From NCBI GenBank assembly GCA_011390205.1, contig JAABSX010000030.1:1-46926 (forward strand): a stretch of DNA of 46,926 bases. Direction: 5' to 3'. A program made the position numbers and the translations under genes. Below are positions 39,286 through 46,284 of the stretch, piece after piece. The stretch comes from Microscillaceae bacterium (GTDB lineage: Bacteria > Bacteroidota > Bacteroidia > Cytophagales > Microscillaceae). The notes under the pieces are model-generated. The model was given only the letters and a program-made list of their open reading frames with translations. It searched no databases and was not told the origin of the DNA. Every line of letters starts with the position of its first letter. Position 1 is the first letter of the stretch.

Positions 39286-39630
39286 CTACTTTACTTTATC
39301 TACTACTGCCTTAAATGCATCTGGATGGTTTGCAGCCAAATCAGCCAAAACCTTGCGATTTAGCTCGATGTCTGTTTTTTTGAGCAGGTTGATAAATTGT
39401 GAGTAGCTTAAACCATATTCACGCACACCTGCATTAATTCTCTGAATCCAGAGTGCACGAAAATTACGTTTCTTTTGCTTACGGTCACGATAGGCATACT
39501 GTAAGCCACGCTCAATGGCGTTTTTGGCAACAGTCCAAACATTCTTGCGGCGGCCAAAGTATCCTTTGGCTAGCTTCATCATTTTTTTGCGGCGCTTTCT
39601 AGCAGCCACGACGTTAACGGAACGAGGCAT
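39286..39630 (-). CDS. rplT: 50S ribosomal protein L20
   Basis: The product has 114 residues, the usual L20 length. It starts [21 protein letters not shown] and continues [20 protein letters not shown] and [20 protein letters not shown], all diagnostic of the family. L20 binds 23S rRNA early in assembly of the large subunit and in several bacteria represses its own operon. It is the last gene of infC-rpmI-rplT, 91 bases after rpmI, and is followed by a strong terminator. Confidence 0.98.
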
Positions 39631-39721: not shown

Positions 39722-39919
39722 TTAACTTAAACGCAACAGTGCTTTGACGTTATTAAGGTCTGCTTTGTGCACCAAAGTAGCGTGCGTAAGATTGCGTTTG
39801 CGCTTGGTAGATTTCTTGGTAAGGATGTGGCTCTTGAAAGCGTGTTTACGCTTGATTTTGCCTGTTCCTGTAATTTTAAATCTTTTTTGCGCACCAGATT
39901 TCGGTTTTATTTTAGACAT
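39722..39919 (-). CDS. rpmI: 50S ribosomal protein L35
   Basis: The product has 65 residues from the ATG at 39919 ([20 protein letters not shown]), the family's normal length. The frame is open to 40003, but the extra 28 residues are hydrophobic, unlike L35, and run close to the infC stop. The sequence is strongly basic ([20 protein letters not shown]), as expected for a small rRNA-binding protein of the large subunit. It is the middle gene of infC-rpmI-rplT, 110 bases after infC. Confidence 0.97.
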
Positions 39920-40029: not shown

Positions 40030-40623
40030 TTACGAATTTTCTTCACTCGTTTCTTTTTTGGGTTTAGATTTTTTGGTGACAGGTTTAGGAGCCATCATCA
40101 AAATCATGCGCTTACCTTCTAGTTTAGGCATTTGCTCTACTTTCCCATTGTCTTCCAGCTCTTTGGCAAAGCGCAGGAGTAAGAGTTCACCTCTTTCTTT
40201 GAAGACGATGGTACGCCCTACAAAATGTACATAAGCCTTAAGCTTAGCGCCATCGGCCAGAAAACTTTTAGCATGGTTCAGCTTAAAGTTAAAATCATGG
40301 TCATCTGTGTTAGGGCCAAAACGAATTTCTTTTACGACTACTTTTTGTGCCTTGGCTTTTAACTCCTTTTGCTTTTTCTTTTGTTCATATTTAAACTTGG
40401 AGTAGTCAATCACTTTGCATACGGGGGGCTTGGCATTGGGAGAAATCTCCACCAAGTCTAGCCCTGCCTCATCGGCTAATTTACGTGCCTGCTCAATAGA
40501 ATACACGCCTTGTTCTACATTCTCACCTACGACCCTTACTTCACGGGCGTTGATTCTTTCGTTTACACGGTAAGGCTCTGGAGCACGCCCTCTAAAGCCT
40601 CTCTTTTGATTATTTTTGTTGAT
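40030..40623 (-). CDS. infC: Translation initiation factor IF-3, starting at ATC
   Basis: The product has 197 residues if started at the ATC codon at 40623-40621. The conserved IF-3 N-domain ([17 protein letters not shown], then [19 protein letters not shown]) lies upstream of the first canonical start in frame, a GTG at 40506, so that start would cut off essential sequence. An in-frame TAG lies 12 bases before the ATC, and no ATG, GTG or TTG occurs between that stop and the GTG. A perfect AGGAGG at 40634-40629 stands 5 bases before the ATC. IF-3 discriminates against non-standard start codons, and infC of Escherichia coli uses AUU for self-repression, so the same control is likely here. The C-domain ([20 protein letters not shown]) is normal; a Lys/Glu-rich tail ends the protein. 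thrS, often upstream, is absent. Confidence 0.95.
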
Positions 40624-40628
40624 AAATA

Positions 40629-40634
40629 CCTCCT
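40629..40634 (-). promoter_or_regulatory. Perfect Shine-Dalgarno sequence that fixes the infC start
   Basis: AGGAGG on the minus strand, 5 bases before the ATC start of infC. Strong Shine-Dalgarno sequences are uncommon in Bacteroidota, so its presence here supports initiation at the non-standard codon. Confidence 0.85.
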
Positions 40635-40670
40635 ACTTTGATTAATAACTAAACTACTCTATAACTATTG

Positions 40671-40701
40671 TTACAGCCACAAAGTTCATTTGTAGCTGTA
40701 A
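40671..40701 (-). other. Hairpin in the gap upstream of infC
   Basis: TTACAGCCACAAA (40671-40683) pairs with TTTGTAGCTGTAA (40689-40701) through 13 positions with one non-canonical or G-U pair and a 5-base loop. In the transcript direction it lies 28 bases beyond the coiled-coil gene and 36 bases before the infC Shine-Dalgarno. No U run follows, so it may be a leader regulatory structure or processing site rather than a terminator. Confidence 0.5.
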
Positions 40702-40728
40702 TAACACGATTTATTGTTATCTATATTC

Positions 40729-46210: not shown

Positions 46211-46284
46211 GGAGTGGTAGTTCAGTTGGTTAGAATGCCTGCCTGTCACGCAGGAGGTCGCGGGTTCGAGCCCCGTCCATTCCG
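46211..46284 (+). tRNA. tRNA-Asp (anticodon GTC)
   Basis: A 74-base cloverleaf: acceptor stem GGAGTGG with CCATTCC (one G-U pair) and discriminator G at 46284; D arm with AGTTGGTTAGA; anticodon stem CCTGC/GCAGG around the loop CTGTCAC, with GTC at 46245-46247; T arm with the GTTCGAG loop. CCA is not encoded. It has its own promoter and a terminator, and its 3' half is a typical attachment site for tyrosine recombinases, one of which is encoded just downstream. Confidence 0.97.

Follow-up and report, generated by a model that had tools for sequence, protein, structure and literature searches.

The infC gene of a Microscillaceae bacterium appears to start at ATC behind a strong Shine-Dalgarno sequence, an arrangement that recurs in its order

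Where does translation of infC, the gene for initiation factor IF-3, begin in a 46,926-nt contig of a Microscillaceae bacterium (JAABSX010000030.1, analyzed over its whole length and referred to below as the window)? The listing of open reading frames gives the gene in a form truncated at a GTG codon and encoding 158 aa, and the N-terminal IF-3 domain sets in 20 codons before this GTG. The features of the locus are collected in Table 1. The gene order is the usual infC-rpmI-rplT. A coiled-coil-like ORF and a gene for a MacB-like permease are located upstream of infC; thrS, which adjoins infC in other bacteria, is not found directly upstream.

Table 1. Features of the infC locus within the window.
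Feature	Position	Strand	Basis and remarks
infC (IF-3) CDS, read from ATC	40030..40623	-	197 residues; Pfam IF3_N and IF3_C over cut-off; PDB IF-3 matches
ATC, putative start codon	40621..40623	-	direct reading and order-wide comparison
Shine-Dalgarno sequence AGGAGGT	40628..40634	-	AGGAGG = 40634..40629; 5 nt (TATTT) to ATC
In-frame TAG	40633..40635	-	overlaps the Shine-Dalgarno sequence; bars a start further upstream
GTG, first canonical in-frame start codon	40504..40506	-	inside IF3_N; 39 codons downstream of ATC
IF3_N domain (PF05198)	40363..40566	-	E 7.9e-31
rpmI (bL35)	39722..39919	-	PF01632; downstream of infC
rplT (bL20)	39286..39630	-	PF00453
Predicted hairpin in the infC leader	40673..40699	-	folding; 11 bp in the stem, 5 nt in the loop; lies between infC and the ORF upstream of it

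On the minus strand, the region in question reads AAG TAG GAG GTA TTT ATC AAC AAA AAT, with the TAG in frame 12 nt before the ATC; no ATG, GTG or TTG was found by direct reading in the infC frame between this TAG and the GTG at 40506. An ATC with AGGAGG 5 bases upstream, a TAG 12 bases before it and the lack of any earlier canonical codon had all been claimed in the original prediction, and direct reading bears them out; the claim that the N-domain begins upstream of the GTG is confirmed by the IF3_N match, which runs from 40566. When the protein is read from ATC, it covers positions 1–69 of the 70 in the IF3_N profile (106.2 bits), and when it is read from GTG, only positions 23–69 are matched (78.1 bits), so that 22 of the 70 are dropped. 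The IF3_C profile was matched over positions 1–86 of 86 by the ATC-start protein, and a PDB search returned IF-3 chains (best E 1.1e-44), the three best of which match it from residues 18, 7 and 17 onward. A start at ATC yields a complete IF-3, and comparison with relatives (see below) makes it close to certain that ATC is the start of infC. The trimming of approximately 39 residues from this protein by a standard gene caller is plausible.

The Shine-Dalgarno (SD) sequence of infC was compared with a background taken from the same genome, comprising the window plus 400 kb (447 kb), in which we sampled 314 ATG ORFs that do not overlap and have 120 codons or more. Each was taken to begin at the first ATG that follows a stop, which means that some of these starts will be wrong. 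Since a search of this genome for 16S rRNA found none, the anti-SD sequence used for all pairing energies was taken from relatives. The predicted pairing of the infC SD with the anti-SD has an energy of −11.6 kcal/mol, a value reached by none of the 314 sampled starts and by 4/312 control windows placed 60 nt upstream. Within the 18 nt before the start, AGGAGG was absent from all 314 ORFs and GGAGG was present in one. Pairing of −7 kcal/mol or better was found at 3/314 starts, compared to 5/313 windows 25 nt upstream and 14/312 windows 60 nt upstream; as such pairing is rarer at starts than upstream of them, the sample shows no SD use, and SDs are perhaps even avoided at ORF starts in this genome. 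The earlier statement that strong SDs are rare in the phylum agrees with this sample and with the papers on Bacteroidia (PMC9976891, PMC10783764). The bare string AGGAGG-N4..8-ATH (ATH: ATC, ATT or ATA) has 628 matches in the genome, and the reversed pattern 358. It is thus too common to be significant alone, and the argument rests on its position and conservation.

Whether ATC or ATT together with an SD is conserved in relatives, the check proposed with the original prediction, was examined in 116 genomes of the order. An IF3_N match was found in 114 of them (including the genome under study) and was absent from two, and all 114 loci were read. GGAGG precedes an in-frame ATH by 4–9 nt in 39/114 loci (ATC 19, ATT 13, ATA 7), and in none of the 114 does it precede an in-frame ATG, GTG or TTG by 3–11 nt. 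A 40th locus with an SD and ATC (L110) was recognized by eye; since tblastn had misplaced its anchor, it was counted as having neither feature and was dropped from the tree described below. The loci without a spaced SD comprise 31 with an ATG candidate, 22 with a TTG or GTG candidate and 22 (L110 included) that lack a canonical codon as well. GGAGG occurs at nt −90 to −41 from the domain anchor in 43/114 loci, and in six other 50-nt windows in 1/113, 1/113, 5/113, 2/114, 7/114 and 0/114. Among the 39 loci with SD plus ATH, NTG is absent between the in-frame upstream stop and the ATH in 33, and on both sides of the ATH up to the domain in 21. In the control gene rplT, ATG was present in 101/101 loci with the N-terminal motif found (140 searched), one of which was preceded by GGAGG. 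The sister of the window on the IF-3 tree (L044) carries AAAGGAGG and ATC. The repetition of this layout in relatives argues against chance and against a sequencing error that hides an ATG, which had been named as a possible refutation, and supports the claim that infC initiates at ATC with an SD. In two members of family f15 (L026 and L018), GGAGG lies just over 10 nt before the ATG candidate, perhaps as a remnant of an SD-plus-ATH start.

The comparison of relatives shows the start site, the SD and their tendency to co-occur. The last of these was examined on an IF-3 protein tree of 113 rows, built by a quick method; it is unrooted and weakly supported (25 of its 108 inner branches starred), and some of its long branches meet (L065 with L348). 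The SD changed at least 12 times on this tree and the canonical start at least 20 times. In the Pagel test of correlated evolution (113 rows), the dependent model was preferred to the independent one (LR 39.7, 4 df, p 5e-8), although the test is partly circular, as the start was scored non-canonical whenever SD plus ATH was found. Several fitted rates lay at their bounds in both Pagel runs, and the second run (with ambiguous rows) is not relied on. When SD and start were scored independently in fixed windows, their association was weaker (Fisher p 0.006, with kinship ignored). Both GGAGG and NTG were present in the fixed windows of 10 loci: in seven the NTG is downstream of an SD plus ATH, in one a GTG is upstream of it, and in the remaining two (the f15 loci mentioned above) the codon is ATG and GGAGG is too far off. 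Four independent pairs, too few for this test, were available on well-supported branches; between none and two of them were informative, none against coupling.

Non-AUG starts of infC are already known. The gene starts at ATT in Escherichia coli and at ATC in Streptomyces, both being named as cases in which IF-3 translation is autoregulated (PMC5472188), and in Staphylococcus aureus it has an AUA start with a predicted extended SD and ribosome density at the AUA (PMC13009471). Like the members of this class, the gene described here encodes a full IF-3 and, by comparison, would start at one of AUU, AUC and AUA. It shares with E. coli infC an ATH start and the succession of rpmI and rplT (PMC5472188, PMC10931766), and differs from it in using AUC instead of AUU, in belonging to a phylum where SDs are rare and in having no thrS directly upstream. 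Streptomyces infC has the same ATC start but belongs to a different phylum. S. aureus infC likewise combines a non-AUG start with a strong SD, and initiation was observed there by Retapamulin profiling (PMC13009471), but S. aureus relies on SDs, whereas they are nearly absent from the 314 starts sampled here.

The arrangement is probably best explained by a start of infC at AUC that limits IF-3 synthesis through IF-3 itself, with the strong SD anchoring the mRNA. The AUC would be read as fMet, and this poor start codon would make infC mRNA a preferred target when IF-3 rejects non-AUG initiation complexes; IF-3 would thereby hold down its own production, in the way demonstrated for E. coli. By anchoring the mRNA on the 30S subunit, the SD would make a poor codon usable in a phylum where initiation is mostly SD-free; we infer that it acts by pairing with the anti-SD. 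Repression of infC by IF-3 is likely by analogy with E. coli, and the combination of SD and ATH in so many loci points to a conserved self-limiting switch.

A wider set of 90 loci from the phylum (the 30 best-scoring and 60 chosen for family spread, from 289 matching genomes, some of which belong to the order) was read together with 80 loci of named genera; the sets overlap, as some named loci come from genomes in other sets (e.g. L252 and G026). SD plus ATH was found in 3/90 phylum loci, and in 53/90 both a canonical start and a spaced GGAGG are missing. NTG is absent from the stop to the domain, with or without an SD, in 43/114 order, 54/90 phylum and 31/80 named loci. An ATH is present at −28 to −5 codons in 120 of these 128 NTG-less loci; the eight others, which lack ATH in the expected stretch, count against the explanation given above, as do the loci in which a canonical start and a spaced GGAGG are both absent (22/114 in the order and the 53/90 in the phylum). 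The latter indicate that a non-AUG start need not always have an SD.

Among the named genera, an SD plus ATA was identified in 6/7 Hymenobacter loci, both Pontibacter loci and several Bacteroidales, an SD plus ATT in both Fulvivirga and an SD plus ATC in Cesiribacter. Of the 29 named rows labeled as having an SD, five (L257, L304, L308, L314 and L316) were discounted, because their GGAGG appears to lie within the true start region or far away from it. ATG is the codon in the named Bacteroides, Phocaeicola and Parabacteroides loci, and TTG in all seven Mucilaginibacter loci. Many Flavobacteriaceae share ATA-GCA, in most cases following GTC or GCC; they have no SD, and a stop often lies a few codons upstream, so that another feature must mark this apparent AUA start. 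ATA-GCA without GGAGG recurs in Flavobacteriaceae and similar loci (L143, L144, L147, L149, L151, L155, L156, L258, L259, L310, L319 and others). The ATH start of infC seems to be ancient in the phylum and to have been exchanged several times with ATG and TTG, in one direction or the other; which way these changes went is our reading, since counts on a tree without a root do not supply it.

The self-limiting switch has to be weighed against the possibility that the non-AUG start is an inherited relic, with the SD compensating for a weak codon and no feedback control being involved. This would be consistent with the finding that spaced GGAGG occurs only before ATH in the order loci, and ATG or TTG candidates without an SD are found in several lineages, from which it follows that the SD-plus-ATH device is dispensable. 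ATG is only one base change away, and yet ATH is found again and again in several families and orders, which makes a relic possible but somewhat unlikely.

A second alternative concerns the ribosomes that read the gene. In Bacteroidia, bS21, bS18 and bS6 form a pocket that holds the anti-SD, and SDs go unrecognized by the ribosomes; strong SDs are characteristic of rpsU, rpsR and certain other ribosomal genes, and ribosomes lacking bS21 favor strong-SD mRNAs (PMC9976891). In Flavobacterium johnsoniae and other Bacteroidota, rpsU has a strong SD and is autoregulated through such bS21-less ribosomes; typical rpsU pairing is below −13 kcal/mol, and rpsR ranges from −7 to −14 kcal/mol (PMC9976891). 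infC might, in the same way, be read mainly by ribosomes with an exposed anti-SD (e.g. those without bS21), so that IF-3 output would report ribosome make-up. The bS21 of the genome under study, as translated from rpsU, has Tyr at position 54, the residue changed in the Y54A mutant described in the same paper (PMC9976891) and expected where the anti-SD is sequestered; moreover, the infC SD falls within the rpsR range. On the other hand, at −11.6 kcal/mol (calculated with a program and tail length different from those of the paper) it is weaker than is typical of rpsU, and the product is IF-3, not bS21. infC is like F. johnsoniae rpsU in having a strong SD despite the sequestered anti-SD of the phylum (PMC9976891), and unlike it in being a different gene with a weaker SD and a non-AUG start.

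In the genome under study rpsU has no SD, and no GGAGG was found before the first ATG of rpsR (identified by PF01084) or rpsF (recognized by eye); the infC SD is therefore not a by-product of an rpsU-type system. An rpsU SD as companion of the infC SD was not supported by 30 rpsU loci from the 57 genomes having rpsU: pairing of −7 kcal/mol or stronger was present in 2/14 with an infC SD and 4/16 without one. As reading by exposed-anti-SD ribosomes would also leave the pairing of SD and ATH unexplained, we regard it as unlikely. Very strong rpsU pairing was observed in L350 (G053; −13.6 kcal/mol), L367 (G047; −18.7) and L363 (G038; −16.0), with GGGGG replacing GGAGG in the first two.

The state of the anti-SD itself could be read in 15/116 genomes in which a 16S 3′ end was found (12/116 by a second pattern); a narrower pattern requiring GGAT matched 2/116, and 13 of the 15 tails have GGAA. 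CCTCC is intact in 11 of the 15 tails, and seven of these 11 genomes have an infC SD (G079 by eye); it is altered in four (G019, G035, G064 and G077), none of which has an infC SD. The difference (one-sided p about 0.05, computed by hand, with three of the four altered tails from one family) is suggestive of an intact anti-SD accompanying the infC SD. The altered tails (16S 3′ ends L211, L204, L206 and L205, respectively) carry CCTCT or TCTCT where CCTCC is expected, and the infC genes of these genomes have no spaced GGAGG. Three of these genomes belong to the small-genome family f21, the fourth being G019.

Translation from the GTG at 40506 with a truncated N-domain, or a sequencing error hiding an ATG, is hardly credible: GTG is indeed the first canonical start, but its use would cost the 22 IF3_N positions noted above, and the same layout of SD and ATH is repeated in many genomes, including that of the tree sister L044.

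Gvozdjak and Samanta reportedly discussed genes that prefer non-AUG starts in an arXiv note of 2020, which may touch on infC. A literature search, judged mostly by titles, found no report on where infC starts in Bacteroidota or on its SD there. The main text of PMC9976891 has no occurrence of “infC”; its SD survey across the phylum deals with ribosomal protein genes, together with whole-genome scans of Flavobacteriales, and it remarks that true SDs are in some cases hidden by wrong 5′ ends. Since the start of infC is non-canonical, SD surveys based on annotated starts would miss its SD, and the gene may often be shortened in Bacteroidota annotations. The spread of non-AUG infC starts in Bacteroidota, and their pairing with a strong SD where the anti-SD is hidden, are apparently unreported.

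The interesting and testable part is that a strong SD is tied to a non-AUG codon in an SD-blind phylum. The SD-plus-AUH form of infC is a recurrent natural test of whether, and by what, the anti-SD of SD-blind ribosomes is used beyond ribosomal protein genes, and the joint presence or absence of SD and AUH across lineages offers a comparative experiment on the way an SD makes up for a weak start codon. A bolder proposal, which we consider doubtful, is that outside Flavobacteriaceae infC would be a main SD-dependent gene not encoding a ribosomal protein, that its AUH would need an exposed anti-SD, that IF-3 level and anti-SD exposure would jointly set its output, and that SD and start would be gained and lost as a unit.

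The infC leader was also inspected. The promoter motif TAnnTTTG was found at nt −100 to −15 before infC in 23/113 loci, compared to 7, 14 and 4/113 further up, a weak excess, and it was not seen in the leader of the window itself. A within-family leader alignment was uninformative (five rows, one of which, L029, was on the wrong strand), and an Rfam search of the whole window revealed only a tRNA at 46211–46284 and no leader family. The leader hairpin listed in Table 1 is not followed by a T-run. The 159-nt stretch containing it (40570–40728), which also includes a second hairpin in the coding part, folds better than 200/200 shuffles (z −3.63).
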